36,673 nt of DNA, from the IMG/VR virus record IMGVR_UViG_3300021376_000163, positions 1 through 36,673 of that record; one strand, written 5' to 3'. Each line of letters opens with the position of its first letter. Position 1 is the first letter of the stretch. Position numbers and translations under genes: made by a program. The DNA is from a virus. Under the pieces are notes generated by a model. It worked only from the letters and a program-made list of their open reading frames with translations, was not told where the DNA came from and made no database searches. Shown here piece after piece: positions 13,515-36,673 of this stretch.

Positions 13515-14408
13515 TCAAGGTGTTGTGTATCGAATGTAAATTCCGCCAGATCCGCCAGAACGGTAATTGTTTCCTGCACCTCCACCACCAGATCCTGCAA
13601 CTGAAGCATTTCCATTAGGATCTGTTCCACCATCTGCCTGTCCACCTTTACCACCTCCGCCCCAGCCACCGGGCCCGCCAGGGCCGCCGAGGTTGTTTCT
13701 AACATTTCCACCTCCTCCACCTCCGGAGAAGTGTCCATAAGTTCCACTAGGACCAGGAGCACCAAAACCTGCCGGAGCCCATACCGAGGATCTATCAGAT
13801 CCATTTCCACCATTTCCACCACCATTTCCAGGAGACCCAGAGTTACCGGAACCACCACCACCACCGCTTCTTGCTGGGTTTGGTGGGAAGTAAATTGGTG
13901 AACCTGATCCACCAGGTTGTCCTTGTGGACCACCACTTCCACCACCACCAGGTGGTCCAGACCAACCAACACCTCCACCACCACCAGAAGCATTGGCAGG
14001 ATTTCCTGGAACAGTTCCATCACCACCACCGCCTCCACCATAAGCGGTGATAGGATTTGGTCCACCATCATCATATATACTAGTGCCACCGGTGTTTCCT
14101 CTGGGATTACTACCACTCCCACCAGTGCCGACAGTCATTATCAATATTCGACCAGGAGAAACTGGTGTGGCAGGAGAGTAAACATTTCCACCTGCTCCAC
14201 CGCCACCACCACTTCCACCACCACCACCACCAACTACTAAAACATCTAGAGATGTAACTGAAGAAAGGCCAGGAATTTTTAGAGAATCTGTTGTGGCAAA
14301 GTAATGGAATGTATACCCACCCACTTCGGAAACAGTTCCTCCTGTAATCTCCGCTGATCCAGAAAATAAGATTCCAAGATTGTCTGTAATATAAGTTAGA
14401 AAAGGCAT
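13515..14408 (-). CDS. Gly-rich fibre-tip-like protein
   Basis: After about 55 ordinary residues the sequence becomes extremely Gly-rich: LDVLVVGGGGGGSGGGGGAG, then runs of GGGGG separated by short polar or Pro-containing turns (GNPANASGGG, GPPGGGGSGG, GAPGPSGTYG). The chain ends GGIYIRYTTP. The form is that of the phage Gly-rich domain family, thought to pack as poly-glycine-II helices in adhesin tips. The Pro residues are often in X-Pro-Gly, which is the context preferred by collagen prolyl hydroxylases. GGAG lies before the ATG. It closely follows the 515-residue fibre gene (three bases apart). Confidence 0.82.
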   Translation of the reverse strand: MPFLTYITDNLGILFSGSAEITGGTVSEVGGYTFHYFATTDSLKIPGLSSVTSLDVLVVGGGGGGSGGGGGAGGNVYSPATPVSPGRILIMTVGTGGSGSNPRGNTGGTSIYDDGGPNPITAYGGGGGGDGTVPGNPANASGGGGGVGWSGPPGGGGSGGPQGQPGGSGSPIYFPPNPARSGGGGGSGNSGSPGNGGGNGGNGSDRSSVWAPAGFGAPGPSGTYGHFSGGGGGGNVRNNLGGPGGPGGWGGGGKGGQADGGTDPNGNASVAGSGGGGAGNNYRSGGSGGIYIRYTTP

Positions 14409-14411
14409 AGA

Positions 14412-15959
14412 TTATACTCCATAATCTCCGTTCATGTTTCCAATAACCATGTAGCTTGCGATAGCACCATCGCCAACAGTATCTATACCAACAAAGTTAA
14501 AGATATCTATCTTGTTTGCCGTTCCCGTGGGTGCTGCTGATCCTTGCCAATGAATTGTTTTTCCTGTTCCATTATAAGAAACGGCATTCACAATTCTTGC
14601 CGTAGCTTTTTGTCTAATCACAACCGAATGTGTTAGAACATGATTGGGAAGATTAGTTGGAATGTTTGTGATAGCAAGTGTTACATTACCACTAAGAGTA
14701 TGATCCGCATAAGCAACGTTTCCATTACCAGCAGCGAAATCTAGTGTAGCAGTTTCACCTGAAGTCCACTTAGTTGATTTCTGTGCCATCGAAGCAGTGG
14801 CAGTGGCAACAAAAGTAGAAATACCCGATGCTTCAACACCACCAGTAACAGTAACACCAGCACCAGTAGTTGCTAGTTTTTGAGAAGCATCATAATAAAG
14901 ACTTACAGAACCATTTGGCGTAAAGATGCCCATGGGTTCTCCGCCACTACTATGTCTTATTTCAATGGGACTTCCAGTAGCGGTATCAATAATAAATGAA
15001 CCAGATGTATTTTTATTTCTAATTAGTGAATTGTTTGTAGATGATAGATGAGTAATTACAAGATCACCACCACTCAATGCTCCTAATTGAATTTCATCAT
15101 CATCACCTAATTTTATATCATTTTGGAATGTGGCAACACCAACAACATCTAGTCCACCACCAGTGATTCTTAAACCTGCTCTTGCAGTGGCAATACCAAT
15201 TGAATCTTGGTTGGTAACGTTCTCATAAGTAAGGTCGCCAAGAACCGTTACGTTTCCACTGAAGTTAGCGGAAGAACCAGATAGAACTCCACCAACCGTA
15301 GCAGCACCAGAAACGTTAACACTGGTTGCACCAATGGTCCCAACAGTAATATTAGGAGTTCCAGAAAGACCCGTTGCGTTTCCTGTTACGTTTCCAGTTA
15401 CGTTTCCAGTAACATTACCAGTCAGAGCACCAGAAAATGTAGTGGCGGTGACGACACCAGAGGCATTAATTTGATTAATAGTAAGAACAGTGGAGTGTAA
15501 GGTATTACCACCAACCTGAACACCATCGGTGTGATGTATGGTGACTCCAGTTCCAACTTTGACTTGATTATTAGACCCATCAAGCGTGATCGAACTTGTT
15601 CCTATGGTAAGAATACCAGTGATCCTAGCATCACCAGTCACGACTAGTTGTGTTGTTCCACCACCGACGACGGTATTACCAAATGTTGAAACCCCAGAAA
15701 CATTAGCACCAGCAGCAGAAAGTGTTGCTGCCGTTAGAATTCCACTTAACTGAATTCCTGGCGAAAGAATATCAATACCAGAGGCAAAAGTTACAACACC
15801 AGCAACATAGGCACCCTGGTTAAAGTTAACTGCAGATTGGACCGTAAAATTTCCAGCACAGGTAAGAGTTTGACCTGCTCCAATGGTCATCCCTTTGCTA
15901 TAAACCGGAGCAGTACTCCCGTCTTCACTTACAATATTGTCTACTCTTAACTCAGACAT
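14412..15959 (-). CDS. modular tail-fibre protein, 515 residues
   Basis: The N-terminus MSELRVDNIVSEDGSTAPVY is the attachment-type motif shared by several fibre genes here. Repeats typical of beta-helical or trimeric fibres follow: NVTGNVTGNVTGNATG (near residue 190), 'SVNVSGAATVGG', 'GIATARAGLRITGGGLDVVG', 'VTGGVEASGISTF'. The C-terminal part (YADHTLSGNVTLAITNIPTN, then HVLTHSVVIRQKATARIVNA) resembles a terminal domain seen in marine phage fibres. A late octamer lies at 15981-15988. It shares exact-type modules with 15988-17889 and 25097-28474. Confidence 0.85.
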   Translation of the reverse strand: MSELRVDNIVSEDGSTAPVYSKGMTIGAGQTLTCAGNFTVQSAVNFNQGAYVAGVVTFASGIDILSPGIQLSGILTAATLSAAGANVSGVSTFGNTVVGGGTTQLVVTGDARITGILTIGTSSITLDGSNNQVKVGTGVTIHHTDGVQVGGNTLHSTVLTINQINASGVVTATTFSGALTGNVTGNVTGNVTGNATGLSGTPNITVGTIGATSVNVSGAATVGGVLSGSSANFSGNVTVLGDLTYENVTNQDSIGIATARAGLRITGGGLDVVGVATFQNDIKLGDDDEIQLGALSGGDLVITHLSSTNNSLIRNKNTSGSFIIDTATGSPIEIRHSSGGEPMGIFTPNGSVSLYYDASQKLATTGAGVTVTGGVEASGISTFVATATASMAQKSTKWTSGETATLDFAAGNGNVAYADHTLSGNVTLAITNIPTNLPNHVLTHSVVIRQKATARIVNAVSYNGTGKTIHWQGSAAPTGTANKIDIFNFVGIDTVGDGAIASYMVIGNMNGDYGV

Positions 15960-15980
15960 TTATTTGGAATGCTTTTCTTT

Positions 15981-17921: not shown

Positions 17922-18488
17922 TTAGACCAAATCATAATTTTGATTTTGACCTGGATATAAACTACACCATCCAGTCATAATATATTTTGTTTCTGTATTT
18001 GAAACTATACCATAATGGCTATGTGTCCATCCTGCTGGCCAAATATATAAGTCCCCTTCTCTAGGAGTGGATGTAAAGTTTTGTTGTGGCCAACAAGTTC
18101 CACCATCATCGTGAATATCATTTAGATAGATCATCCAGGCAAGTATTCTTCTTTGATCTGGTTCCACATTCCCGTGCTCCATGTGCTCACCAGGATAACT
18201 ATTTCCTGGTTCATATTTTTGTATATTATAAAGACCATCTAATCCCCAAGGATAATATAACTTTTTGAGAAAAGAATATTCTTCACAATATTCAACAAAT
18301 GGTCCTTGAAGAGATTTAAAAAGAAATGAAAAAGTGTCTTTACTTATATCACCGCAAGCAAACCCAGGAACAAGAAGATAATTTCTTTTTGTTACTATTT
18401 TTTTAGATTGATCGAAATAATTAATAATAATTTCACACTGCCCTTTTGTTAAACACTTTTCCCTTTTGAAAATGAAATCTTTATTCAT
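17922..18488 (-). CDS. 2OG-Fe(II) oxygenase, P4H-like HxE type, paralogue of 11338-11910
   Basis: I choose the ATG at 18488 (MNKDFIFKREKCL), three bases after the previous stop; 188 residues. NIQKYEPGNSYPGEHMEHGN has His102 and Glu104; RRILAWMIYLNDIHDDGGTC forms the core strands; EGDLYIWPAGWTHSHYGIVS has distal His158 (or His156); and TETKYIMTGWC has Lys168. The match to 11338-11910 in every block shows that the two arose by duplication or parallel gain. It is much richer in A/T than the oxygenases near 9-10 kb. Substrate unknown. Confidence 0.84.
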   Translation of the reverse strand: MNKDFIFKREKCLTKGQCEIIINYFDQSKKIVTKRNYLLVPGFACGDISKDTFSFLFKSLQGPFVEYCEEYSFLKKLYYPWGLDGLYNIQKYEPGNSYPGEHMEHGNVEPDQRRILAWMIYLNDIHDDGGTCWPQQNFTSTPREGDLYIWPAGWTHSHYGIVSNTETKYIMTGWCSLYPGQNQNYDLV

Positions 18489-18490
18489 GA

Positions 18491-19105
18491 TTAGGCAGCA
18501 TGTAAAAACTGAGTCATACAAAATCTACCATTTTTTTTATGACATTCCTCATCATTCATTTCTATGATAGTAACGGAATGTGTTATACATGATGGAAATA
18601 TAATAGACATATTATTTTTTATTTCAACAAAAAACATATCATCTCCAAGATAAAATAATAAATCTCCACCTTTAAATTTTTTTGGTTCCTTATAGAGCCA
18701 TGTCAAGCATGTAGCCAAAGATTGATCTTTATGTTGCTTATAGTAGTCACCATTTTCATAATAAGAGATTAAAGTATTGTATGAACCAATTTCTATACTT
18801 TGAAAAAACCAAGATGGATTGCCTCTAAAAATTTTTTCTTGGACCTCAATTTCAATAATTTTTTTATTTAACTTCAATATATTTGAATACTCTCGATCAG
18901 AATAGAATTTATCCAACCATATACAATTATTTCTTTTTAAGATTTCTCCATTTTTTTTAGCTGTACCTGATTTTTCTGGAGGTAAAAAATTTTTAGGATA
19001 ACATAAAAAATTTAACTCCTCCCAAATAATAGAAAGTTCATTTTCATCATAAACATTTTCCATAGAAATATATGGAAATTCTCCATCAAAATGTTTGACT
19101 AACAT
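18491..19105 (-). CDS. 2OG-Fe(II) oxygenase, prolyl-hydroxylase-like
   Basis: The 204-residue protein has LISYYENGDYYKQHKDQSLA with His125 and Asp127, GGDLLFYLGDD as the middle strand, and NNMSIIFPSCITHSVTIIEM with distal His176, followed by Arg194 in GRFCMTQFL. This is the P4Hc (PF13640-like) pattern. The N-terminal half is Lys/Asn/Ile-rich and not distinctive. It sits between two other oxygenase genes with a gap of only one or two bases on each side. A hand count of 18541-18660, within this gene, gave 29 G/C in 120 bases, so it is AT-rich and possibly a recent arrival. Confidence 0.84.
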   Translation of the reverse strand: MLVKHFDGEFPYISMENVYDENELSIIWEELNFLCYPKNFLPPEKSGTAKKNGEILKRNNCIWLDKFYSDREYSNILKLNKKIIEIEVQEKIFRGNPSWFFQSIEIGSYNTLISYYENGDYYKQHKDQSLATCLTWLYKEPKKFKGGDLLFYLGDDMFFVEIKNNMSIIFPSCITHSVTIIEMNDEECHKKNGRFCMTQFLHAA

Positions 19106-19106: not shown

Positions 19107-19724
19107 TTATAGAAATAAATTTATTCTAGAGTCGTCACTACCAAATTCACCAAAGGGAAAAAAATTAAAAGCAACTGAGTATCTATCTTTATTAGAGAAA
19201 TTTTTAAGTATCATATGGTCAATATGACTTGGGAATAATATAACTTTATTTTTCTCTGGATGAACACTCCATGTTTTTGAATTGAAATTATTATATTCTT
19301 TTTCTGGATTTGTAAGGATAGAATTTTTGCTGTCATTTGGATTAAAAAATAATATTGGTGATTGATCGAGATGATCTGTCAAATATAAAACTCCACTATA
19401 ATATGAATTTTTATGTGAATGCCTTTGAGAACCACAATTTGGTGGTGTTTTTGTAACCCACGATGTAGTCATTTTAAAATTGGTCGTTTCTAATCCCAAA
19501 ATATTATTTTTAAATTCTATAAACCCATTTTCAATCTGGTCTTTTATAACTTTAAATTTATCCAAAACATTATAATTTAGACTAACTTGAGATCCCGTAC
19601 CAAAAGTAGTATCTTTAAAAGAGTTTGTCTCTATTAATTTTTCATAATAACTTTGTGCATCATTATTCACAAAAAAAGTGCATAAGACAGTTGGAAAAAT
19701 TGGTGTTATTTCAAATTTGTTCAT
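19107..19724 (-). CDS. 2OG-Fe(II) oxygenase, 2OG-FeII_Oxy_5 type, paralogue of 11894-12529
   Basis: The 205-residue protein has SQRHSHKNSYYSGVLYLTDH (His102 and His104), NKVILFPSHIDHMILKNFSN (distal His170), and KDRYSVAFNFFPFGEFG with Arg181. The N-terminal FEITPIFPTVLCTFFVNN and the turn NFNSKTWSVHPEKN follow the same plan as 11894-12529. The pair probably descends from one gene. This is the first gene of the group-2 run, starting 16 bases after the companion gene stop. Product may modify the fibre encoded next to it, but nothing in the sequence names the target. Confidence 0.84.
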   Translation of the reverse strand: MNKFEITPIFPTVLCTFFVNNDAQSYYEKLIETNSFKDTTFGTGSQVSLNYNVLDKFKVIKDQIENGFIEFKNNILGLETTNFKMTTSWVTKTPPNCGSQRHSHKNSYYSGVLYLTDHLDQSPILFFNPNDSKNSILTNPEKEYNNFNSKTWSVHPEKNKVILFPSHIDHMILKNFSNKDRYSVAFNFFPFGEFGSDDSRINLFL

Positions 19725-20253: not shown

Positions 20254-21591
20254 TTAAGATTGGTATCCCGTGACTTTAATGATCATAATTCCTGGTGAAC
20301 CCGCACCTCCACCAGCACCTCCTGTTGTAGAACCATAGTGTTCAGCACCACCAGCACCTCCGCCACCACCGGCACCATATCCTTGTCCACCAGATCCACC
20401 TGGACCTGGGTTTCTTCCACCGGTGCCACTAGCAGTTCCACCAGCCGTTCCTATTATTGTATTATCTGTTGATGGTGCTAAAGGTGCTGGCAGAGCGCCG
20501 TTAGGTGCGACTATTAGACCACCACCACCACCTGATCCACCATCACCAGCAAACTGAGAATTTCCTCCAGGACCTCCAGCACCACCATTGCCATTTGATA
20601 AAGTATATGCTGGGAAATAAGGAGCAAATGGAGTAATGGTAAAAGAAGCATTCGTTCCCGGGATTCCAGCATACATGTTTGGACCAGGATTGCCAGGTCC
20701 ACCAGCATATGGACCGCCACCAGGTTGTGGTGATGGCATTGCTGGTGATGGATATGATGGAGTTGTAACTGGGAAAGAAGTTCCTGTTTGTGCTATGGTT
20801 TGACCAATTTTATAATTTAAAGATCCGCCAGCGCCCCCAGCTCCACCTTGACCACCACTATCATTACCTGGATTTCCTGGAGAACCAGAAGAACCATTAG
20901 CTCCGGTACTTAAATGAAGGATATCTACAGTAGCATCTGGACCAAAATTATAAGTTGAAGTTAAATTTGCTGTTGTTGGACTTGTATATACAAAATATTG
21001 TGTTATTTGTTGCATATTTTTTACTGTTCTCCAACCACCTGCTCCACTATATGACTCTATAGATTGAGTGTCTGAATTAAAAATCATAGAACCAATAACT
21101 GTTCCAACACCAGCATTTCTACCTGCTGTAGTTGTGGAACCTAATCCAACACCAGCGGTAGAAGAAAGGAAAGCGTTTCCAACAGTTATAGTATTTGTAT
21201 TGCCGTTTAAAGTAATTGTAGAGGTTCCTGTTGTAATAACTCCAGTAACTCTTAAATCGCCATTAACAACTAAAGATGTTGTGGCTCCACCAACAGTAAC
21301 ATTTCCAGTTGTTAAAATTCCAGTAACAACAGCACCAGAAGCTTGTGCTTGTATTTTAACATTACCATTAGAGTCTTTTAATGCTGTGGCATCAATCCCA
21401 GTTAAATTACTTCCATTACCATAAAATGCAGAGGCTGTTACAACGCCAGCAAATTGAGCATTAGTTCCACTATTAACATTCAGTTGCAATATAGTGGTAA
21501 TTCCGGCAATCTCAACACCATAAGCACCAAAAGTTATAGTGCTTAATCCACTTCTACTAGATATTGAATTTACACGAATCTCTGACGCCAT
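20254..21591 (-). CDS. fibre protein with Gly-rich, Pro-containing C-terminal domain, 445 residues
   Basis: The N-terminus MASEIRVNSISSRSGLSTIT is the shared attachment motif, followed by fibre repeats (NVTVGGATTSLVVNGDLRVT) and the connector VGLGSTTTAGRNAGVGTVIG. From about residue 230 the chain turns Gly-rich with many X-Pro-Gly turns (GSPGNPGNDSGGQGG; PGNPGPNMYAGIPG) and then GGSGGGGGL and PGPGGSGGQGYGAGG stretches. It ends SPGIMIIKVTGYQS. It is richer in Pro than most relatives, which makes it the best candidate substrate if prolyl hydroxylation occurs. A late octamer lies at 21611. Confidence 0.84.
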   Translation of the reverse strand: MASEIRVNSISSRSGLSTITFGAYGVEIAGITTILQLNVNSGTNAQFAGVVTASAFYGNGSNLTGIDATALKDSNGNVKIQAQASGAVVTGILTTGNVTVGGATTSLVVNGDLRVTGVITTGTSTITLNGNTNTITVGNAFLSSTAGVGLGSTTTAGRNAGVGTVIGSMIFNSDTQSIESYSGAGGWRTVKNMQQITQYFVYTSPTTANLTSTYNFGPDATVDILHLSTGANGSSGSPGNPGNDSGGQGGAGGAGGSLNYKIGQTIAQTGTSFPVTTPSYPSPAMPSPQPGGGPYAGGPGNPGPNMYAGIPGTNASFTITPFAPYFPAYTLSNGNGGAGGPGGNSQFAGDGGSGGGGGLIVAPNGALPAPLAPSTDNTIIGTAGGTASGTGGRNPGPGGSGGQGYGAGGGGGAGGAEHYGSTTGGAGGGAGSPGIMIIKVTGYQS

Positions 21592-21610: not shown

Positions 21611-21618
21611 TATTTATG
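21611..21618 (-). promoter_or_regulatory. late promoter octamer CATAAATA
   Basis: Minus-strand match 20 bases before the ATG at 21591. It overlaps the stop of the companion gene at 21614. Likely to serve the fibre gene, companion gene 19741 and the group-2 oxygenases. Confidence 0.7.
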
Positions 21619-22099: not shown

Positions 22100-22107
22100 T
22101 ATTTATA
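22100..22107 (-). promoter_or_regulatory. late promoter octamer TATAAATA
   Basis: A perfect T4-type late octamer on the minus strand, 31 bases before the ATG at 22069, overlapping the end of the oxygenase gene upstream. Confidence 0.75.
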
Positions 22108-22633
22108 AAAAGGTGCCAACCAAAACAATTCTTCTTCCTTCAGTTGGTGGTAGATGGTAGTGCTCTCCTTCAAAGATTATAACCTCATCTTCCTTGCCAG
22201 AATAACTTTCACCACCCACAACAGTATCTCCACTGTAAGTATCAGTCAAATAAATTAAAGCATTTGTGTGGGTAAAATTATGGTCTGTATGAGGAAATCC
22301 AGGTTTTCCAGTTTTTGTGGGATGAACACAATTTGCATGTAATCTAAAAATAACTTCTGGTTTAATGTTATTAAAATTTAATATCTCAACAAATACATCC
22401 TGAACTTGGGTTAAAAAACTAGAACTTGGAAAAGAATAGTATGTTTTACCCCCATGACCACCAGGAGATCCTAAGAAACAATGGCTATAATATCCAAAAT
22501 TTTCATAAGTATCGTCACTTATTGGATTAGTTACACTAGAATCCATCCAATGCCATGGAAAGTTAAAACTAAGAACAGACTCTTTTAGTTCTTTATAGTT
22601 GGATGTTTTAGGATTAAAAAGTTTACTTATCAT
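22103..22633 (-). CDS. 2OG-Fe(II) oxygenase, small HxD type
   Basis: The 176-residue protein has PTKTGKPGFPHTDHNFTHTN with His115 and Asp117, GDTVVGGESYSGKEDEVIIF as central strands, and FEGEHYHLPPTEGRRIVLVG with distal His160 (or His158) and Arg167 or Arg168. This is the compact form of the beta-helix fold with a short N-terminus. It overlaps the next gene upstream by 11 bases. The N-terminal half contains FPWHWMDSSVTNP, which looks like an oxygenase entry region but has no known meaning. Target unknown. Confidence 0.82.
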   Translation of the reverse strand: MISKLFNPKTSNYKELKESVLSFNFPWHWMDSSVTNPISDDTYENFGYYSHCFLGSPGGHGGKTYYSFPSSSFLTQVQDVFVEILNFNNIKPEVIFRLHANCVHPTKTGKPGFPHTDHNFTHTNALIYLTDTYSGDTVVGGESYSGKEDEVIIFEGEHYHLPPTEGRRIVLVGTFL

Positions 22634-23243
22634 ATAAAAATGTATAACTAACTCTACAATTTTTTATTCCTGGTTTCATTTCGACATCACAAGTTTCGTG
22701 GAAAGAATCTCCCATAAAAATTATGGCTCTGTTGAACTTATATGGTATTATATCATACTTTGATTTTTTTAAATATTCTCTTACCTTTTCCATAGACCAA
22801 CCCTTCTCATCACTACTATAGTTTTCCCAAGGTCCCTTTGGTCTTTTTTTCTTATATAAGATCAACCCATTCTTATCTTTATTGCCAACACAATCATCTG
22901 GTGTTACCCAAACATTCACTGTAAAATGTGAAGGGTCTGTATGTGGTCCAACACCTGTTCCAAAAGTATTAAATCTAAGACTCCATGCTCTAGAATAATA
23001 TTGTTCTTTTAAAAAAGAAACTCTAGGAACAACAAAGTTGTTAGATATTTCTTTAAGGGACCAATCATCAGGTTTGAGATCAAAGTTTATTGCCTGATAG
23101 TTACTCCATGTTTTTACAGATGAAGATTCGCTTGGAAACTGTAATGTTATATTTCTAAGTTTTTCGCAAAGATCCTTTGGAAAAAAGTTATCAACTACCA
23201 AATATCCTTTAGTTTTTATTTTTACTAAATCCAACCACTTCAT
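22623..23243 (-). CDS. 2OG-Fe(II) oxygenase, HxD type
   Basis: The 206-residue protein has FGTGVGPHTDPSHFTVNVWV with His101 and Asp103, GLILYKKKRPKGPW as the middle strand, and NRAIIFMGDSFHETCDVEMK with distal His182, then Arg197 in NCRVSYTFLY. The N-terminus GYLVVDNFFPKDLCEKLRNI is the typical start of prolyl-hydroxylase-like proteins ('xxxVxDxFxPxxxCxxL'). The middle (WVTPDDCVGNKDKNG and the Ser/Asp-rich EKGWSMEK) resembles phage oxygenases in which an extra loop follows the metal site. It lies two bases after the gene upstream. Confidence 0.84.
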   Translation of the reverse strand: MKWLDLVKIKTKGYLVVDNFFPKDLCEKLRNITLQFPSESSSVKTWSNYQAINFDLKPDDWSLKEISNNFVVPRVSFLKEQYYSRAWSLRFNTFGTGVGPHTDPSHFTVNVWVTPDDCVGNKDKNGLILYKKKRPKGPWENYSSDEKGWSMEKVREYLKKSKYDIIPYKFNRAIIFMGDSFHETCDVEMKPGIKNCRVSYTFLYDK

Positions 23244-25090: not shown

Positions 25091-25098
25091 TATTTATT
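25091..25098 (-). promoter_or_regulatory. late promoter octamer AATAAATA
   Basis: Minus-strand match 24 bases before the ATG at 25067, touching the stop of the 1125-residue fibre gene. It could drive the Gly-rich gene and, by read-through, the three oxygenases of group 3. Confidence 0.65.
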
Positions 25099-28000
25099 AC
25101 ACGACCACCCAAGCACCATCAATGGTTAAAGACCCTTGAACATCAACAGGTCCTGCCATTAATCCATTGAATGCTGTACCAATATAATGGTTACCTCTTA
25201 AAGTATTGTCATGAACGATCATTCCATTAGAAATATAAAGACCTTGGAATGAATTAGCAATTCCAACAAGTGATGGTTGATTTAAAGTTACTGTATTAAT
25301 TCCAACACTTGTGGTGGTTGAAATTCCTGCAGAAGATTGTTCCCAGAAAATATTACCTATAGTTCCTTGAGTGCCCTGAGTTCCCTGAGTTCCATAAGTT
25401 CCCTGTGTACCTTGAGCACCATAAGTTCCTTGAGCACCCTGTACTCCCTGAATACCCTGTGTTCCTTGGACACCTTGTATGCCTTGGGTTCCCTGAACAC
25501 CTTGAGTACCTTGAGTTCCCTGAACACCTTGAACACCCTGAATTCCTTGTACTCCTTGGATACCTTGGATTCCCTGAAGAGCAGCGTTTTGAATTGTTGA
25601 CTTCTTCAGTTGCCCATCAGTATTGTCGTAAACAAGAATATAATCCCCAGATTCTGGTTGTCCAGTGGTTAGTTCAACCCGATCACTAATCAACTGTGGT
25701 GAGACTGATCTCAGTGATGAAGCAGTGACACCAGAACCAAGAGTAGTGGAAGATATAATCTCTACACCATTAATTTTGATTGCACTGTCTGTAATTTGAA
25801 CTCCACCAGCGGCAAGTCTTACCCCATTAGGAACTTGAGTTGAACCAATACCGACCGCATAATTACTCAACCAGGCATCAGTACCAAGTCCAGAGAATGA
25901 TCCAGACTTGAACCACATCAGTTTCTTATAAGTTACTGGTGAGGTTTCTAGTCCAACCAAGTAAAGATCAACTAGAGGCGAACCTTCGGTAGATGCAATC
26001 GCAATACCACCATGATTAGCGGTAATATCATTCGAGACATCATTATTATTGACATCAGTAGTAACACCAAGAATAATGTCCTTATCGAATACTTGTAAGT
26101 CTTGTGCTTGAATTACTGTGGTCGTTCCACCAATGCTTAAGTTTCCTGCAATGTATAAGTTATTATGGAATGTTGCGGTTGTGTCGTAAACATCAAAGTT
26201 TGATTGAACCTTTAATGTGGTGATCGTTGCAATACCACTTACATTTAGATCATCAACTTCAGTTTGTCCATCTACATCTAAATTACCATTAAAGTCAGCA
26301 TCTCCAGTAACAGTTACAATACCCGAAGCAGAAATATTTCTAGTAGTTAAATCATCCCCAAGAGATGCTCCACCAGTAATACTCAGCGATGGTGCATATA
26401 AAGTTCCACCAACAAAGAGATTATTTTGAGTTGTAACGATGCCAACAAAAGTAGAAACACCAGTAACAGAAAGATCTACATCAATAGTTGCAGTGGTTGA
26501 AGAAATAGTCGCAGTATTAGATCCTGCATTATAAAAGTATAAAATATCTTCATTTGCCCCTGCAGATGTTTCGGGGATAATGTAGGTGTCTTGATTTACA
26601 TCTTTAACTCCACCTAGAGATCCCCAGGCATTACCAGGACCATATCCTTCAAAAGAGGATAACTGACTATTATATCTTATCTGACCAGCAACGGGTGCTA
26701 TATCTCTTTCAGACGTATTACCTGCTGGAATTTGAATTGAATTTGTGCTGTCAAATACAACTTTGTCTTTAAAAGTCGTTATTCCTACAAAAGTTGAAAC
26801 CCCAGATACATTTACATTATCTAATTCAGTGTGTCCATCAACATCTAAGTCACCATTAAGATCTGTTGCTCCAGTAACAGTAACAATACCAGAGGCACTT
26901 AGATTTCTTGTAGTGATGTCTTTGCCTAGGCTTGCACCGCCAGCAACAACTAGTGAGGTAGCATTTAATTGTTGTGCATAAACATTGCTTTGGAATGTTG
27001 CGACACCAACAAAAGTAGATAATCCGACAACTTCTAGTTGATTAAATGTTGATGTTGTAGTGTGAATCGTAACACCAGAACCAACGTTGATTGTATTTGT
27101 AGATCCATCTAAAGTAATAGATGACTGACCAACTGTAAGAACTCCAGTGACTCTTGCGTTTCCTTCAACTAATAATGCGGTTGTTCCCACACCAATCGTA
27201 ACTGTTCCAATACCATTAGAAGATCCAAGAGTTGTGATTCCACTTACTAATAGTTGTTGAGAATTTGTAGTTCCATAAACTGTTACTCCAGCATCAAGAG
27301 TTTCTAATTTCTTAGAGTTATCATAATAAAGTTCTGTTGTCCCAGAATCATTAAAGATTGCATAGTTTTCAGTGCCACTCGTATTCTGTAAACGAATAGC
27401 ACCAGTTCCTCTTAGATATAAATCTCCTGCCCCAGAATCTACAACATAAGAATTAGTGCCATCATGGTAAACCTGAAGAGCACCACCAGTGCCCAGGTTT
27501 ATTCTGTCATCATTACCAAGATAAATGTCTTCTTGGAATGTTGCGATACCAGAAACAACTAAAGATTCTAAAGTTGTAGTTCCTTTAACGTCTAGATTTG
27601 TACCTGGATTAGTTGTACCTATTCCAACATTAGAAAATGTATGAATACCTGCGCTATTTGAAACCCAAAGATTTACACCCTGAATACCTTGGATGCCCTG
27701 AGTTCCTTGAGTTCCTTGAGTACCCTGAACACCAAAGATACCCTGAATACCAGAAATACCTTGAGTACCCTGAGGACCAGCAGATTCAAAGGTTAGGATA
27801 TCAATGATGTCTCCAGCACTGGCACCAACACTTAAGACTACATTGGTTCCACTAGTGGCAGTATAATCATTTGGAGTTAAACGAACACCATTTAAGAATA
27901 CATCAATGTTTGTTCCATCAGCATAAGTTGCCGCAAAAGTTGTTTGACCAGCAGTTGCGGTATAATTATATTCCGTTCTTAAAAAACTAAAACCTTGTAC

Positions 28001-28474
28001 ACCTTGAATACCTTGTGGACCCTGGACACCCTGGATTCCCTGTACTCCTTGAACACCTTGAGTACCTTGTGGACCTGCTGATTCAAAGGTGAAGATATCT
28101 ACAATATCACCAGCTACCGATGCCTCGTACAAACGGATTGTACTGGTATTGACAATTGTAAACTCTGACGATGTTAAGTGAACACCATTGACAAATACGT
28201 CTACATTATTTGCCGTGGCATTGAGTACAGAGAAGTCTGTCTGCCCATCAGTTGCTATAAAATGAAAAGATTCTCTATTAAATGTAGAACCCTGAACACC
28301 CTGAACACCTTGGGTTCCCTGAACACCTTGAATACCTTGAATACCCTGTGTGCCTTGTGGTCCTAACTGCCCAAGTCTTTTCCAAGAAGTCCCATTCCAC
28401 TGCCATCTATTACCGTTGGCAACATAGATATCATTTATAGATGGACTTAATGGAAAATCTAGTGCTGCTGCCAT
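25097..28474 (-). CDS. giant modular tail-fibre protein with four collagen-like blocks, 1125 residues
   Basis: Collagen-like Gly-x-Gln triplets occur at about residues 38-62, 134-161, 234-266 and 965-1035 (for example GTQGIQGIQGVQGTQGVQG). Between blocks 1 and 3 lie two copies of a phage fibre domain (FIATDGQTDFSVL and YTATAGQTTFAAT, each with an xVDVFxNGVxL core). The long middle carries 'DLNGDLDVDGHTELDNVNVS' repeats and a YHDGTNSYVVDSGAGDLYLR module. A chaperone-like C-terminal peptidase motif was not seen. The triplet positions are mainly Gln, Thr, Val and Ile; proline appears only as Gly-Pro-Gln, not before Gly. Proposed role: long tail-fibre shaft or adhesin. Confidence 0.9.
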   Translation of the reverse strand: MAAALDFPLSPSINDIYVANGNRWQWNGTSWKRLGQLGPQGTQGIQGIQGVQGTQGVQGVQGSTFNRESFHFIATDGQTDFSVLNATANNVDVFVNGVHLTSSEFTIVNTSTIRLYEASVAGDIVDIFTFESAGPQGTQGVQGVQGIQGVQGPQGIQGVQGFSFLRTEYNYTATAGQTTFAATYADGTNIDVFLNGVRLTPNDYTATSGTNVVLSVGASAGDIIDILTFESAGPQGTQGISGIQGIFGVQGTQGTQGTQGIQGIQGVNLWVSNSAGIHTFSNVGIGTTNPGTNLDVKGTTTLESLVVSGIATFQEDIYLGNDDRINLGTGGALQVYHDGTNSYVVDSGAGDLYLRGTGAIRLQNTSGTENYAIFNDSGTTELYYDNSKKLETLDAGVTVYGTTNSQQLLVSGITTLGSSNGIGTVTIGVGTTALLVEGNARVTGVLTVGQSSITLDGSTNTINVGSGVTIHTTTSTFNQLEVVGLSTFVGVATFQSNVYAQQLNATSLVVAGGASLGKDITTRNLSASGIVTVTGATDLNGDLDVDGHTELDNVNVSGVSTFVGITTFKDKVVFDSTNSIQIPAGNTSERDIAPVAGQIRYNSQLSSFEGYGPGNAWGSLGGVKDVNQDTYIIPETSAGANEDILYFYNAGSNTATISSTTATIDVDLSVTGVSTFVGIVTTQNNLFVGGTLYAPSLSITGGASLGDDLTTRNISASGIVTVTGDADFNGNLDVDGQTEVDDLNVSGIATITTLKVQSNFDVYDTTATFHNNLYIAGNLSIGGTTTVIQAQDLQVFDKDIILGVTTDVNNNDVSNDITANHGGIAIASTEGSPLVDLYLVGLETSPVTYKKLMWFKSGSFSGLGTDAWLSNYAVGIGSTQVPNGVRLAAGGVQITDSAIKINGVEIISSTTLGSGVTASSLRSVSPQLISDRVELTTGQPESGDYILVYDNTDGQLKKSTIQNAALQGIQGIQGVQGIQGVQGVQGTQGTQGVQGTQGIQGVQGTQGIQGVQGAQGTYGAQGTQGTYGTQGTQGTQGTIGNIFWEQSSAGISTTTSVGINTVTLNQPSLVGIANSFQGLYISNGMIVHDNTLRGNHYIGTAFNGLMAGPVDVQGSLTIDGAWVVV
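25361..25573 (-). repeat. collagen-like Gly-x-Gln triplet block (block 4)
   Basis: Around seventy codons of uninterrupted Gly-x-x triplets, nearly all GxQ (GIQ, GVQ, GTQ), encoded by near-tandem 9- and 18-base units. They can slip or recombine, so length variation between related phages is expected. Further blocks with the same codons lie near 27680-27770, 27990-28075 and 28290-28365. Confidence 0.85.
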
Positions 28475-28487: not shown

Positions 28488-28527
28488 TATTTATTGACGA
28501 CGTAATATTCTCTTTTAGTTATTTATG
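28488..28527 (-). promoter_or_regulatory. two late promoter octamers (AATAAATA and CATAAATA)
   Basis: Minus-strand matches at 28488-28495 and 28520-28527, 14 and 46 bases before the ATG at 28474. The upstream one overlaps the stop of the gene at 28523. A double late promoter fits the largest gene in the window. Confidence 0.65.
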
Positions 28528-28549
28528 AGGTTGGGTAAGCAATGATGAC
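28520..28549 (-). repeat. 30-base boundary repeat, copy 2 at 35774-35803
   Basis: The 30 bases covering the late octamer CATAAATA, the stop codon and the last codons (IAYPTS) are identical at 28520-28549 and 35774-35803. The boundary unit 'end of Gly-rich gene plus late promoter of the next gene' is therefore repeated as a block. Confidence 0.85.
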
Positions 28550-29725
28550 AACGCCTGATCCGCCATTAGCGTGAGTTACATGTCCACCACCTCCTCCACC
28601 ACCGGTATTTGTAGTTCCAGCAGTAGCACCTGGATTTGGTTGACCAGGACCATCAAGAAATCTACCGCCGGCACCACCACCACCTGGTCCAGCAGAACCA
28701 GCTGCCATACCTTCAGAACCACCACCTCCACCACCAGCATAAAGAACGGAAGAACCAGTAATAGAAGAAGGTTGTCCCGGTCCACCATTACCTGCTTTTC
28801 CTGGAAATGGACCACCTTGCCCACCTACACCTCCAGCACCGCCTCCGCCGCCGCCACCAGAACTGGATGCTGGTTGTGCGTATCCATCACCACCATTACT
28901 TCCTTGAGTGTTTGGTGTTGAAGCAGTCGGGGTTCCTGTTACTTTATTTCCAGAACCACCAGGAAATCCACCAGCGTTATTACCAGGAACTCTAGAACCT
29001 CCCCCACCACCAGAACCACCAGGTCCACCACCAGTATTAAATCCACCACCAAGTCCACCACCTTGTGCTGTAGCAGAAGTTATTCCTGGATTTGTAATAT
29101 AAGAGGGAGTTCCGTTCGTAGCTGGAGATACTCCTCCACCACCAACTTGAACTGTATATGTTCCTGGACCTAGATTAGTAAATGTTCCCGTAACAAAACC
29201 ACCAGCACCTCCACCACCTCCAGAAGTATCTCCACCAGCTCCACCACCACCAACTACAAGATACTCAAGAGTTCCAGGAGCTCCAGTGATAACAAAGGAA
29301 CCTGGTCCCGTAAAAGTGTAGTATATATAACCAGAACGACCTGTGTTAGCTGTTATTGAACCAGGAGAAACTGTAACTGTAAAAGATTCTTCCGCTGCTT
29401 TAGCCCAACCAACTGGAGTATAAACTTCTAATCTATTGAGATTACTATCATATACTAGAGTTCCAATGGCAGTTCCAATACCAGCATTCTTTCCTGCCGT
29501 TGTTGTAGTGCCGATACCAATGGAAGTAGAAGTAATAACAGTATTCCCAACAGTAATACTTGAACCAGCACCAAGAGTTTGATTCAAAGTAGTCGCAGTT
29601 ATAACACCCGTTACATTCAGTCCAGTAATATTACCAGACAACCCACCAGTAAAGGTAGCAGTTCCAATAGAAACAGTGCTACCTTGTGCGCCTACTATTT
29701 CATCTACACGAAGTTTGCTAGCCAT
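28523..29725 (-). CDS. fibre protein with Gly-rich C-terminal domain, 400 residues
   Basis: The start MASKLRVDEIVGAQGSTVSI carries the attachment motif. The connector TSIGIGTTTTAGKNAGIGTA is followed by LVYDSNLNRLEVYTPVGWAK and a beta domain. From about residue 155 the chain is Gly-rich (GTLEYLVVGGGGAGGDTSGG), with Pro turns such as SPATNGTPSYITNPG and NNAGGFPGGSGNKVTG. It ends GSGVVIIAYPTS, like its relatives. It lacks long fibre repeats, so it may be a short adhesin or tip. A late octamer variant lies at 29740. Confidence 0.84.
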   Translation of the reverse strand: MASKLRVDEIVGAQGSTVSIGTATFTGGLSGNITGLNVTGVITATTLNQTLGAGSSITVGNTVITSTSIGIGTTTTAGKNAGIGTAIGTLVYDSNLNRLEVYTPVGWAKAAEESFTVTVSPGSITANTGRSGYIYYTFTGPGSFVITGAPGTLEYLVVGGGGAGGDTSGGGGGAGGFVTGTFTNLGPGTYTVQVGGGGVSPATNGTPSYITNPGITSATAQGGGLGGGFNTGGGPGGSGGGGGSRVPGNNAGGFPGGSGNKVTGTPTASTPNTQGSNGGDGYAQPASSSGGGGGGGAGGVGGQGGPFPGKAGNGGPGQPSSITGSSVLYAGGGGGGSEGMAAGSAGPGGGGAGGRFLDGPGQPNPGATAGTTNTGGGGGGGHVTHANGGSGVVIIAYPTS

Positions 29726-29739: not shown

Positions 29740-29747
29740 TATTTAGG
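29740..29747 (-). promoter_or_regulatory. late-promoter-like octamer CCTAAATA
   Basis: Variant of NATAAATA on the minus strand (C instead of A at position 2), 15 bases before the ATG at 29725, overlapping the stop of the gene upstream. The same variant recurs at 32848. Confidence 0.45.
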
Positions 29748-30915
29748 CAGTGGGGTAAGCAATGATGACGATACCGGAACCACCTGCTCCACCACTACTA
29801 TTATTTCCTCCGCTACCTCCTCCTCCAGTATTTACTGTTCCAGCGGTTCCTGGATTTGGTGGACCACCACCAGGATATCCACCACCACCACCACTTCCTC
29901 CAGTAGTAGAACTACCGCCAGCACCACCACCACCACCAGCACGAGTTACGGGTGTTCCAGTAATAGAATATGCTAAACCGTTTCCACCAGGACCACCAGT
30001 GCTTGGGGCAGGTGTTGAGCTTCCTGCTGATCCGGCGCCACCACCGCCACCACCGCAACTAGTTGCTGGAACAGCAGTTCCACCATTATTACCCCATCCA
30101 ACTGGGGGAGAAGTGCTGTTAGAAGTTCCGCCTGGAGCACCAGTTGCAGTTCCACCTGCTCTTAAAGGTGCTGATGGATGATATCCACCACCACCTGCAG
30201 AACCACCAGAACCACCAATGCTTGGTTCTGGTGAAATACTTACCCCTCCACCTCCACCACCTTCAGAGATTATAGATGCAAATACACTGCCATTTCCTTT
30301 TCTACTTGCAGTTGGGGTATTATTAGCAGCTGGACCTCCACCACCACCAACTGTAATTGAATATGGACCTGGAGATACTGGTAGTGTTCCAAATTTCAAA
30401 CCACCAGCACCACCTCCACCACCCTCATACATTGTAGGGTTTCCTCCACTACCAGCACCACCCCCTGCTATAACAAGATATTCTACATCTCCACTTCCAG
30501 CATTGACTACAATACTTCCAGGTCCAGTGAAGGTAAATACTGCCCAACCAGAACGACTAGAAGTATCAGCACTCACAGTTGGGCTTGTAATAGATAGAGA
30601 TTCTAAAGTTTTTACATTTTTCCACCCTTGAGGTCCATAACCCTCAAAAGCATTTGTTGTCATGTTATAAATGAGAGTCCCAACAGCAGTCCCTACACCA
30701 GCATTGCGTCCTGCTGTTGTTGTGGTGCCGATGCCAATACTAGTTGCCTTAATAAAACTATTACCGACTACAATACTTGATGTCGCTGTTACTACACCAG
30801 CGTTTACATTACCAGTTACATTACCAGTCAGGTTACCTTGAATATTGCTACCAAAAGTAACGGTAGAAACCCCAGAGTCTGCTTCTATATTATTAACAAC
30901 TATCTTACTTGTCAT
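29743..30915 (-). CDS. fibre protein with Gly-rich C-terminal domain, 390 residues
   Basis: I choose the ATG at 30915 (MTSKIVVNNIEADSGVSTVT), which overlaps the previous stop as ATGA and has GGAG six bases upstream; the longer GTG frame is less likely. The connector TSIGIGTTTTAGRNAGVGTA and IYNMTTNAFEGYGPQGWKNV precede a beta domain, then VEYLVIAGGGAGSGGNPTMY and long Gly runs with YPGGGPPNPGTAGTVNTGGG near the end. It ends GSGIVIIAYPTA. Pro-Gly turns are frequent (SPGPYS, GAPGGTSN). It is the third gene of a coupled unit with two small proteins (30912-31390). Confidence 0.84.
   Translation of the reverse strand: MTSKIVVNNIEADSGVSTVTFGSNIQGNLTGNVTGNVNAGVVTATSSIVVGNSFIKATSIGIGTTTTAGRNAGVGTAVGTLIYNMTTNAFEGYGPQGWKNVKTLESLSITSPTVSADTSSRSGWAVFTFTGPGSIVVNAGSGDVEYLVIAGGGAGSGGNPTMYEGGGGGAGGLKFGTLPVSPGPYSITVGGGGGPAANNTPTASRKGNGSVFASIISEGGGGGGVSISPEPSIGGSGGSAGGGGYHPSAPLRAGGTATGAPGGTSNSTSPPVGWGNNGGTAVPATSCGGGGGGAGSAGSSTPAPSTGGPGGNGLAYSITGTPVTRAGGGGGAGGSSTTGGSGGGGGYPGGGPPNPGTAGTVNTGGGGSGGNNSSGGAGGSGIVIIAYPTA
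29753..29784 (-). repeat. 32-base repeat at the 3' end of Gly-rich genes, copy 2 at 35787-35818
   Basis: Bases 29753-29784 and 35787-35818, coding for the GSGIVIIAYPT end, are identical and in the same orientation. Confidence 0.85.
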
Positions 30916-31154
30916 ACGATTCTCCACTCTCCTTGAACTGTGACGGTATAACCAAGACCGACTGTTACGGTTCCAGCAGTGACTCCGTTGGTTCCTACTG
31001 GTATAGTCACATTCTCATCAATAGAATTCTTGTTTGCCTTTATGATACCATAAGTATCTAGCCACTGTTTCTCACCATTCGCAGAAATAATATCCTTGAA
31101 GTCAACGGTGCTACCAGTTTGAGACCTTATGTTTTGAACATAAATGCGTGTCAT
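30912..31154 (-). CDS. small fibre-base-like protein, 80 residues
   Basis: The ATG at 31154 (MTRIYVQNIRSQTGSTVDFK) overlaps the previous stop as ATGA; the GTG at 31166 is less likely. The protein reads DIISANGEKQWLDTYGIIKA, then a repeat-like region with TIPVGTNGVTAGTVTVGLGY and the end TVTVQGEWRIV. The N-terminal motif resembles the attachment segment of the larger fibres, and the 'TIPxGTNGxxAGxxTxxxGYTV' part is widespread in phage structural proteins. It is a clear paralogue of the next gene, with about half of its residues the same by eye. Confidence 0.78.
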   Translation of the reverse strand: MTRIYVQNIRSQTGSTVDFKDIISANGEKQWLDTYGIIKANKNSIDENVTIPVGTNGVTAGTVTVGLGYTVTVQGEWRIV

Positions 31155-32847: not shown

Positions 32848-32855
32848 TATTTAGG
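32848..32855 (-). promoter_or_regulatory. late-promoter-like octamer CCTAAATA
   Basis: Minus-strand variant of NATAAATA, 15 bases before the ATG at 32833, touching the stop of the companion gene at 32851. Confidence 0.45.
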
Positions 32856-33261: not shown

Positions 33262-33280
33262 ATAATTATTCCTCCTTGAT

Positions 33281-34066
33281 TCAACTATATGGATATGCAA
33301 TAATAACTAGTCCGGATCCACCATTACCATGTCCTCCATTTGTGGGAGATCCACCACCACCACTACCGGAACCAGGTGGTCCACTCGAAAATCTGGGTCT
33401 ACCCAAACTAGATCCATCTGGGGATTCATACCCAGAGTCTGCACCTTGACCTATTAATTGTGGATTTCCGGTAATAGTAATAGTTGTTCCAGCACCACCC
33501 CTCCAAGCATTTCCATTAGCACTAGAACCAGCTCCACCAGATCCAGGTATTCCTTGGTTTGGTGCTCCACTATAATCTGCATTACTTCCACCTGGGCCAT
33601 TTGGTGGACCTCCTCCCCCACCAGGAGCAGTTACTGGTCCAAAAACACTTGGTTGCCCAGTTCCACCAGTAGATTGTGGTGGACTAGAAGCCGCACCTCC
33701 TCCTCCTATTGTTACTGTATATGGTCCTGGTGTTACCGCAAGACTGCCAGTTCTAAGAGTTCCGGAAGCTCCCCCAGGGCCAAAAGATGCTCCGAAGGAC
33801 CCACCACTACCTCCACCACCACCACCAATAACAATATACTCAACACTTAAAGAACCAGATGTTACATTAAATGGTTCTGATGTTGTAAAAGTGTGAATAA
33901 CATAACCAGATCTAGTGTGAGATAATGTTCCTCCAGTTGCCAGAAATCCATTAGGAGCGTTTGTTCCGCCTCCGGTATTGCGGCTTGCAACAAATTCGGT
34001 TAGTTTACTTAGTTGACCACTAAAGGTAGAAGAGAGAGATCTGAATTTAGTACTACGAATTCCCAT
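33281..34066 (-). CDS. Gly-rich fibre-tip-like protein, 261 residues
   Basis: It starts MGIRSTKFRSLSSTFSGQLS and, after a short segment (GTNAPNGFLATGGTLSHTRS and GYVIHTFTTSEPFNVTSGS), enters the Gly-rich domain at VEYIVIGGGGGGSGGSFG. Pro-Gly turns include GPNGPGG, GAPNQGIPGSG and SSGPPGSGSGG. It ends GSGLVIIAYPYS. There is no long shaft, so it may be a tip that sits on another fibre. Upstream signals are weak; it is probably co-transcribed with 34087-34494. Confidence 0.82.
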   Translation of the reverse strand: MGIRSTKFRSLSSTFSGQLSKLTEFVASRNTGGGTNAPNGFLATGGTLSHTRSGYVIHTFTTSEPFNVTSGSLSVEYIVIGGGGGGSGGSFGASFGPGGASGTLRTGSLAVTPGPYTVTIGGGGAASSPPQSTGGTGQPSVFGPVTAPGGGGGPPNGPGGSNADYSGAPNQGIPGSGGAGSSANGNAWRGGAGTTITITGNPQLIGQGADSGYESPDGSSLGRPRFSSGPPGSGSGGGGSPTNGGHGNGGSGLVIIAYPYS

Positions 34067-34853: not shown

Positions 34854-34920
34854 CTACTTGACAACCCCTCACAATATAAGTAGAATACCTTTGTTAGGGT
34901 TAAAGATCAATAATACTTAG

Positions 34921-35376: not shown

Positions 35377-35378
35377 TT

Positions 35379-35747
35379 TTATAATACGGGTTCGGGTCCT
35401 TCTGGTTTTGGGTGCTTTTCTTTTACTGCGTCAATAGCAGTAATCCAACTTCCATTATTTAGGTTACCAGACTTTATATCGTGGTAAAGCATATCCAACT
35501 GATCTTTGAGATGTGGATACTCTTTTTCACGGGTTCTCTCATAGAGATAGTAGTTATAGATATCTACTTCTCTTTTAATTTCTTCTTGTATCTCTTCCCA
35601 AGTGGGTGGTTCTCTACCTTCATCATCTTGCCACCCAACAAAGGTGGTGTTTGAAAGGTCCCAACGAGCACCAGGACGAAGAGTATTAATTGCGGTATCT
35701 ACACCAGGAACAGGGTATTCGATACCCTTGAACTTTCTGTATGCCAT
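35379..35747 (-). CDS. small phage tail protein with 'YPxxxDQLDMLY' motif, 122 residues
   Basis: The sequence opens MAYRKFKGIEYPVPGVDTAI, has ARWDLSNTTFVGWQDDEGRE, PPTWEEIQEEIKREV, and the tract EYPHLKDQLDMLYHDI, with the end WITAIDAVKEKHPKPEGPEP. The 'YPxxxDQLDxLxxD...W...I.AVKxKxPKP' pattern is common in small proteins beside phage tail-fibre genes (XkdW-like). It is thought to be part of, or help to assemble, fibres. A late octamer is at 35774. Confidence 0.82.
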   Translation of the reverse strand: MAYRKFKGIEYPVPGVDTAINTLRPGARWDLSNTTFVGWQDDEGREPPTWEEIQEEIKREVDIYNYYLYERTREKEYPHLKDQLDMLYHDIKSGNLNNGSWITAIDAVKEKHPKPEGPEPVL

Positions 35748-35773
35748 ATAGTCAAATAAGTGATATACGGGAG

Positions 35774-35781
35774 TATTTATG
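35774..35781 (-). promoter_or_regulatory. late promoter octamer CATAAATA
   Basis: Minus-strand match 27 bases before the ATG at 35747, overlapping the stop of the last gene in the window. It is part of the 30-base repeat shared with 28520-28549. Confidence 0.7.
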
Positions 35782-36673
35782 AGGTTGGGTAAGCAATGAT
35801 GACGATACCGGAACCACCACTTCTACCAGTACCGCCACCGCCACCACCAGTGTTTGTAGTTCCAGATGTACCGCCGGTACCAGGCAAACTCAATCCACCA
35901 TCTCCACCACCACCAGGACCGCCTGCACCTCCGCCGCCACCAGAGCTGCCACCACCACCGCCAGCCCTAGTGGTTGATGTTCCATTGATGGATGATGCTT
36001 GTCCTATACCACCACTTCCACCTGGTGTGTTTGCAGTTACATTTCCCCCAACACCACCAGCACCGCCACCACCAGCACAAGTATATTGAGGTCCACCACC
36101 TCCACCACTAGTTCCTCCAGGATAACCTTGTTGATTGGGTCCCGGATATCCTGTGGCAGTTCCACCTACTCCTGTGGTATATCCAGATCCACCACCAGAA
36201 CCACCATCCCCACCAGAAAGACCAGCATGTCTTCCATATCCACCACCTTCTGATGTTACAGAGTTAAATGAACTGTCAGATCCTTTACTTCCATTATTAC
36301 CATCAACAGTCGCTCCAGCCCCACCACCACCAATCGTAACTGGATAAGATCCTGGTGTTATAGTCATTGATGTACTAGTTTTATATCCTCCAGCTCCACC
36401 ACCACCGCCTGCAGTAAATCCACCACCACCTCCGCCAGCGATTATAAGATATTCTACAATTTTTTGTCCTTCAGTAACACTAAAGGTTCCTGGTGAAGTA
36501 AAGGTATGAACCTTATATCCAGGTCTTGATACAGTTGACTCTGTTCCTCCGCTAGCACTAAATGGTGATGTTAGTCCACCGATCCATTGATTTCCATCAT
36601 ATACCTGAACTTGAGATGTATCGATATTATAAATGGTAAAACCTTTTTCAGTATTGATACCAGCATTTCTACC
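35777..36673 (-). CDS. fibre protein with Gly-rich domain, 5' end beyond right edge
   Basis: The frame is open from the last base of the window to the stop at 35777, giving 298 codons without a true start; the ATG at 36367 is internal. The first residues are GRNAGINTEKGFTIYNIDTS, the remainder of the connector motif found in four other fibres, then GNQWIGGLTSPFSASGGTES, a beta domain, and VEYLIIAGGGGGGFTAGGGG. Pro turns include GYPGPNQQGYPGGTSGG. It ends GSGIVIIAYPTS. The missing part should contain the attachment motif and perhaps shaft repeats. Confidence 0.85.
   Translation of the reverse strand, partial: GRNAGINTEKGFTIYNIDTSQVQVYDGNQWIGGLTSPFSASGGTESTVSRPGYKVHTFTSPGTFSVTEGQKIVEYLIIAGGGGGGFTAGGGGGAGGYKTSTSMTITPGSYPVTIGGGGAGATVDGNNGSKGSDSSFNSVTSEGGGYGRHAGLSGGDGGSGGGSGYTTGVGGTATGYPGPNQQGYPGGTSGGGGGPQYTCAGGGGAGGVGGNVTANTPGGSGGIGQASSINGTSTTRAGGGGGSSGGGGGAGGPGGGGDGGLSLPGTGGTSGTTNTGGGGGGTGRSGGSGIVIIAYPTS

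Follow-up and report, generated by a model that had tools for sequence, protein, structure and literature searches.

The virus record IMGVR_UViG_3300021376_000163, analysed here over its whole length of 36,673 nucleotides (36.7 kb; the window), is a segment of a T4-like cyanophage from the tail-fibre region. Between 8.9 kb and about 36.6 kb it carries, on the minus strand throughout, genes for fibres and glycine-rich tip proteins that alternate with a dozen oxygenase-like genes. Genes are named in the following by their lower coordinate. Tips of this kind are much richer in proline in records that also encode an oxygenase, and the arrangement of tip gene and 10153-type oxygenase gene recurs in two unrelated groups of marine phages. 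We see about an even chance that the linked 2-oxoglutarate- and Fe(II)-dependent (2OG-Fe(II)) oxygenases hydroxylate proline residues of the tips. More tentatively, we advance a wider reading: in at least two unrelated families of marine phages, a dedicated tip-linked oxygenase module hydroxylates proline in the phage's own receptor-binding tips and moves between families together with the tips, and the tips are rich in proline because of this module. To our knowledge, no function has been assigned to the many 2OG-Fe(II) oxygenases that marine phages encode, which are usually regarded as metabolic helpers. A tie of such an oxygenase to tip genes and tip proline was not found in the literature looked through, and, judged by title and abstract, none of the papers that mention hydroxyproline together with phage tail fibres concerns phage tips.

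Tip proline and the neighbouring oxygenase gene

Tips were also gathered with the tip profile alone; PF13640 was then sought in these records, and PF13759 in the first set of them. In the set of all records, which was partly chosen via oxygenases, tip proline amounts to 7.4% with an oxygenase and 2.0% without one (3.6-fold, p 2e-15). No other residue changes as strongly, and glycine (34.6% versus 33.9%), Asn, Asp, Glu, and Lys hardly differ. In the tip-selected set, which was not chosen via oxygenases, the median tip proline content is 7.1% for 10 records with a 10153-type gene and 1.8%, with a maximum of 3.1%, for 24 records without it on contigs of at least 9 kb. Accordingly, 9 of the 10 former exceed 4.5% proline, compared with none of the 24 latter. 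Six shorter contigs without a 10153-type gene also lie above 4.5%; in five of the six, the tips resemble those of HTVC023P-type phages, so that the 10153-type gene may lie off the contig. Since the remaining proteins of these loci have a similar proline background (3.7-3.9% with an oxygenase versus 4.2% without), the contrast does not reflect a genome-wide bias, and guanine-cytosine content does not account for it either.

The additional proline is found in loops (11.4% in oxygenase-bearing tips versus 3.5% in others) and in insertions (16.8% versus 3.1%) and hardly ever in conserved glycine columns, while several columns rise from near zero to 40-58%. For example, many oxygenase-bearing tips read Gln-Gly-Asn-Pro-Gly-Gly where others read Gln-Gly-Asn-Asn-Gly-Gly or Gln-Gly-Asn-Ala-Gly-Gly. 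Tips with a linked oxygenase contain 2.29 Pro-Gly per 100 amino acids compared with 0.41 without, and proline before glycine makes up 32% of tip proline in the former (0.93 of the expectation from composition) and 20% in the latter (0.58). The sequence-only reading of the window had placed any prolyl hydroxylation in the X-Pro-Gly turns of the Gly-rich domains. These domains are indeed the likelier place, but the signal spreads over many loop positions and is not particular to X-Pro-Gly. In eight loci with HTVC023P-like tips (L139, L141, L143, L145, L150, L154, L155, and L159), a conserved G-N-T-P-P-V-S-P-P-Q-G-N motif is rich in proline and devoid of X-Pro-Gly.

Linkage was analysed in loci gathered for the 10153, 11338, and 17922 types and, as a control, for thyX of the same phage type, with a minimum length of 8 kb for a locus to be counted. 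A Gly-rich open reading frame (ORF) occurs in 59 of 66 loci of the 10153 type, 20 of 27 of the 11338 type, neither of the two of the 17922 type, and 4 of 41 control loci. In 42 of 44 cases, the nearest tip gene shares the strand of the 10153-type gene and lies upstream of it, at a median distance of 518 bp; in the window this distance is 2.7 kb, with other oxygenase genes in between. The gene order of tip, oxygenase, and 'ferrochelatase' occurs both in Kyanoviridae and in HTVC023P-type phages, which are podoviruses unrelated to T4 (PMC9599517). These pelagiphages have an oxygenase with 73-76% identity to the one found in the main non-cyanophage group. HTVC023P encodes three tips with 8-11% (up to 11.1%) proline in their last 280 amino acids in front of oxygenases and the 'ferrochelatase', and HTVC033P has the same arrangement with two tip genes at 6.8-7.9%. 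A contrast exists even inside one genome, as another Gly-rich protein of HTVC023P that is not upstream of an oxygenase (L310, 15338-16264) has only 1.6% proline. Complete genomes without PF13640 have proline-poor tips (ICBM1, 2.4%; CRP-143, 1.6-2.0%). The scan of bacterial genomes with the tip profile yielded two loci only, and a tblastn search of isolate phages with a tip query yielded six records, with low-complexity filtering hiding Gly-rich sequence.

Tips, fibre, and enzymes encoded in the window

The left end of the window encodes gp32, gp59, PhoH, and ThyX, and its nearest records are S-SKS1 and other Synechococcus phages. The features of the tail-fibre region, all on the minus strand (-), are as follows.

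35777..36673 (-): Gly-rich tip protein, 5' end lost at the window edge; PF21722 E 4e-17; domain at residues 55-298 with 7 X-Pro-Gly; modelled with AlphaFold 2 (AF2)
33281..34066 (-): Gly-rich tip protein; PF21722 E 5e-15; 6 X-Pro-Gly, 0 Asn/Ser/Tyr-Pro-Gly
29743..30927 (-): Gly-rich tip protein; PF21722 E 8e-14; 6 X-Pro-Gly
28523..29725 (-): Gly-rich tip protein; PF21722 E 2.5e-8; 12 X-Pro-Gly in the domain
25097..28474 (-): fibre of 1125 amino acids; contains long repeats of other kinds beside four short collagen-like segments; PF01391 E 1.7e-21
28283..28372 (-): collagen-like segment, fibre residues 35-64
27986..28075 (-): collagen-like segment, fibre residues 134-163
27671..27778 (-): collagen-like segment, fibre residues 233-268
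25349..25573 (-): longest collagen-like segment, residues 968-1042, 25 triplets, no proline at Y
23796..25067 (-): Gly-rich tip protein; PF21722 E 2e-15; 9 X-Pro-Gly in the domain
23245..23766 (-): oxygenase-like; phrog_2696, weaker phrog_81; HDH...H...R by eye
22623..23243 (-): oxygenase-like, HTD...H...R; PF13640 E 0.083
22103..22633 (-): oxygenase-like, HTD...H...R; phrog_274
20254..21591 (-): Gly-rich tip protein, diverged; 10 X-Pro-Gly; PF21722 not matched
19107..19724 (-): 2OG-FeII_Oxy_5 family protein; PF13759 E 4e-17
18491..19105 (-): 2OG-Fe(II) oxygenase, HKD...H...R; PF13640 E 6e-6
17922..18521 (-): prolyl-hydroxylase-like oxygenase, HxE...H...K; PF13640; solved prolyl 4-hydroxylase (P4H) relatives E 0.014; conserved invariants
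13515..14408 (-): Gly-rich tip protein, followed by an oxygenase cluster; PF21722 E 1.6e-6; 8 X-Pro-Gly in the domain
12526..13128 (-): oxygenase-like, HQD...H; phrog_274
11894..12529 (-): 2OG-FeII_Oxy_5 family protein; PF13759 E 9e-22
11338..11910 (-): HxE...H...K oxygenase resembling prolyl hydroxylases in sequence and modelled fold, putative modifier of tip proline; P4H relatives E 9e-5
10153..10770 (-): PKHD/PiuC-type 2OG-Fe(II) oxygenase, T4-GC 412; PF13640 E 6e-13; 3dkq, 9ghl
9427..10152 (-): homolog of the phage 'ferrochelatase' (T4-GC 615, phrog_2954), oxygenase-like HxD...H
8897..9430 (-): 2OG-FeII_Oxy_5-like protein; PF13759 at 26.5 bits, just below the cut-off; phrog_81

The seven tip proteins named by the sequence-only reading each end in a C-terminal Gly-rich domain with 28-39% glycine, and six of them match the PF21722 profile above its cut-off, 20254 being the exception. 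The domains contain 58 X-Pro-Gly in all, compared with about 52 Pro-Gly expected when each domain is shuffled, which rules out an over-representation of X-Pro-Gly as such. By the same shuffling, Asn-Pro-Gly is about threefold enriched (9 versus about 2.9) and [Asn/Ser/Tyr]-Pro-Gly about twofold (20 versus about 9.9), and Gly-Pro is rarer than expected (37 versus about 52). The commonest residue at X is glycine (18 of 58). The many Asn/Ser/Tyr-Pro-Gly turns that had been noted are thus partly confirmed by the number of X-Pro-Gly and the excess of Asn-Pro-Gly, but only 20 of the 58 have Asn, Ser, or Tyr at X, and 33281 has none of these.

The domain of 35777 was modelled with high confidence (predicted local distance difference test (pLDDT) 94.6; predicted template modelling score (pTM) 0.91). 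Its predicted fold resembles the Gly-rich domain of the Pam3 fibre protein gp24 (7ypx, 7yfw; for 7ypx Z 14.9 over 168 residues with 28% identity) and the tail tip of Bxb1 (Z 14.5), with the Gly-rich domain of ALK/LTK far lower (Z about 7). Pam3 and Bxb1 surfaced by fold comparison only, as a search of the tip sequences against PDB sequences gave no match. In the model, the seven X-Pro-Gly are outside strands or at strand ends, and those at positions 5 and 51 are turns of the beta-framework and not part of Gly-rich loops. For Pam3, the Gly-rich domain has been described as a lattice of Gly-rich motifs with variable end loops proposed to meet the host (PMC9608196). A Gly-rich lattice with variable distal loops proposed for host recognition has likewise been described for gp38 of S16 and PP01 (PMC6851490; PMC12892980). 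The earlier placement of the Gly-rich domains at the receptor-binding end is well supported by these analogies, and by analogy to Pam3, S16, and PP01 the tips are predicted to bind the host receptor. Unlike Pam3 gp24 and S16/PP01 gp38, the tips of the window are rich in proline and are encoded among oxygenase genes. No PF13640 hit was obtained for S16, and the Gly-rich part of its gp38 contains 3.6% proline and three X-Pro-Gly; because these occur in the absence of a PF13640 oxygenase, X-Pro-Gly turns need no hydroxylation.

In the fibre 25097, Gly-X-Y triplets are confined to four segments of 30, 30, 36, and 75 residues (171 in total, 57 triplets). The 'collagen-like shaft' of the sequence-only reading therefore overstates segments that are real, with Gly-X-Gln triplets, and make up only 15% of the protein. 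Its view that this part is a poor target holds: Gln occupies Y in 82.5% of the triplets, and proline is found at X in 4 of 57 and at Y, the position before glycine that a collagen-type P4H would use, in 0 of 57. The two X-Pro-Gly of the fibre are both outside the collagen-like segments. The absence of proline at Y is general, as in the oxygenase-bearing loci gathered to that point, the window included, only 5 of 831 triplets have proline at Y, where Gln is commonest. A phage prolyl hydroxylase has been tied to collagen in tail fibres in one paper (PMC9301287), a link that is less likely because proline is absent at Y.

The nearest solved relatives of 10153, a member of the cyanophage oxygenase family T4-GC 412, are of the PKHD/PiuC type (3dkq, Sbal_3634; 9ghl, PiuC) with E-values of only 2e-4 to 3e-3, and a P4H appears only at E 0.23. 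The iron-binding triad HxD...H is present (H101, D103, and H182, invariant together with R192 in 17 relatives), and the HxD...H...R pattern is common to 10153, PiuC, and Sbal_3634. Collagen-type P4Hs carry a lysine ten residues after the last histidine. This position is held by the invariant Arg192 in 10153, which, together with the nearest relatives, sets it apart by sequence from a collagen-type P4H. Judged by motif and sequence relatives, 10153 is probably a PKHD/PiuC-like enzyme, the similarity being weak, and differs from PiuC and Sbal_3634 in its linkage to tail tips. The choice of 10153 as the modifying enzyme by the sequence-only reading is hence apt insofar as this oxygenase type is the one most tightly linked to tips, but the prolyl-hydroxylase-like proteins are 11338 and 17922. 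Bacterial P4Hs are the nearest solved sequences of 11338 (E 9e-5) and, weakly, a P4H is also nearest to 17922 (E 0.014). In the family of 11338, H113, E115, H167, and K177 are invariant in 28 of 28 sequences. Its AF2 model (pLDDT 89.9) has a prolyl hydroxylase fold: all 50 matches listed are prolyl hydroxylases, the best being PPHD of Pseudomonas putida (4iw3; Z 20.6, 176 residues, root-mean-square deviation 2.5). PPHD, PHD2, an algal P4H (3gze), and vCPH of PBCV-1 (5c5t) share the fold with Z 20.6 to 19.2 as well as the final His-x9-Lys; 11338 differs from these in having HxE, a variant of HxD, and in its neighbourhood of phage virion genes. Activity of 11338 on peptidyl proline is predicted from sequence and model.

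Between 8897 and 23766, oxygenase-like genes stand behind fibre/tip modules in sets of three from three different families (23245/22623/22103, 19107/18491/17922, 12526/11894/11338), a hint that each module may serve several kinds of modification. The products of 12526 and 22103 match phrog_274, labelled 'DNA endonuclease V', and read HQD...H and HTD...H...R like 2OG-Fe(II) oxygenases, so that this label looks wrong. The product of 9427 belongs to the 'ferrochelatase' family of Kyanoviridae and HTVC023P-type phages, whose invariants HxDR...H-W-R...Q-x-F-x-H resemble those of a 2OG-Fe(II) oxygenase. Comparison of the family with Pfam and solved structures gave no ferrochelatase match and none above chance to oxygenases, and its profile matches that of the 11338 family weakly; the annotation may be wrong. 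Five small related proteins are encoded right after fibre/tip genes (13135-13506, 19741-20238, 21614-22069, 32851-33300, and 34921-35376) and have in common a P-Y-P-S-W-like motif and Y-x-W-D-E. A Pfam search with them gave no meaningful match; a similar small protein comes after the tip gene of HTVC008M, and these proteins may be tip chaperones.

Proposed hydroxylation of tip proline and its alternatives

If the linked oxygenases do hydroxylate tip proline, phage 2OG-Fe(II) oxygenases would be expressed together with the tail-fibre genes and would hydroxylate proline in loops of the Gly-rich receptor-binding tips during virion production in the host. The constant partner would be the 10153-type enzyme encoded directly behind the last tip gene; 11338 and 17922, both prolyl-hydroxylase-like, may act beside it in the phage of the window. 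Gene linkage, the proline contrast, the classes of fold, and the conservation of catalytic residues are observed; activity of the enzymes, tip proline as their substrate, and the effect of the hydroxyls, which would stiffen loops standing on the poly-Gly lattice, add hydrogen bonds, or alter the contact surface, are inferred. The collagen-like segments would not be the substrate.

Several observations weigh against this proposal. Three loci have proline-poor tips despite an oxygenase (L223, 2.0%; L018, 2.7%; L085, 3.1%), the one in L223 being of the 10153 type. In HTVC008M, tip proline reaches only 3.9% (8 tip prolines before glycine) despite nine PF13640 hits. Over 14 complete cyanophages, the number of oxygenases shows no clear relation to the number of PF21722 tips, and several lack a PF21722 tip despite 7-9 PF13640 hits; therefore, only the linked oxygenase would matter, if any. 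The X-Pro-Gly of S16 gp38 and the weakness of the tip tree, considered next, belong here as well.

The enrichment could instead be structural or inherited from ancestors, being typical of the tips of two successful groups of marine phages that swap fibre modules, with the oxygenase co-travelling for another reason and the proline unmodified. Kyanoviridae and HTVC023P-type phages supply most of the oxygenase-bearing tips, multigene module transfer between these families has been reported (PMC9599517), and S16 shows that X-Pro-Gly occurs without a PF13640 oxygenase. A proline-masked tree of 124 tips, with 4 well-supported branches of 119 and one usable independent pair, is too poorly branched to count independent events and does not establish independence, so that ancestry is not fully removed; the capsid marker PF07068 had no match over the tip-bearing records, controls included. 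Occurrence of the pairing in two unrelated groups weakens the argument from ancestry without removing it. We consider a purely ancestral trait somewhat unlikely, given that proline alone among abundant residues shifts several-fold, that the Gly-rich protein of HTVC023P away from the oxygenase is poor in proline, and that tip-selected loci still show the contrast.

The oxygenases might also act on another residue (Asn, Asp, or Lys) or another fibre protein, such as the small post-tip proteins, with tip proline being incidental. They belong to several families and not to one, and the genomes of HTVC008M and Mosig hold several adjacent oxygenases, some annotated as phytanoyl-CoA dioxygenase or Asp/Arg hydroxylase; however, no other abundant tip residue differs comparably between oxygenase-bearing and oxygenase-less records, and we judge such a target improbable. 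Finally, the oxygenases could serve metabolism (2-oxoglutarate levels, iron, or DNA repair) and lie merely by chance in a hypervariable insertion region. Publications interpret them in this way in cyanophages (PMC3037559; PMC9602691) and in HTVC023P-type phages, where the oxygenase has already been reported next to the ferrochelatase (PMC9599517). Both this gene pair and T4-GC 412, to which 10153 belongs, have been published as auxiliary metabolic genes, and further oxygenase genes in these genomes are remote from tip genes. Conserved order, strand, and short spacing of tip and 10153-type genes in two phage families, compared with the scarcity of Gly-rich ORFs around the control gene, make this metabolic reading very improbable.

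If hydroxylation of tip proline is true, the tie to tip composition gives tip-linked oxygenases a structural role that is testable by ordinary virion proteomics. The virus would then chemically modify the proteins it uses for host recognition, and in some common ocean phages the tip sequence alone may not describe the surface that faces the host.

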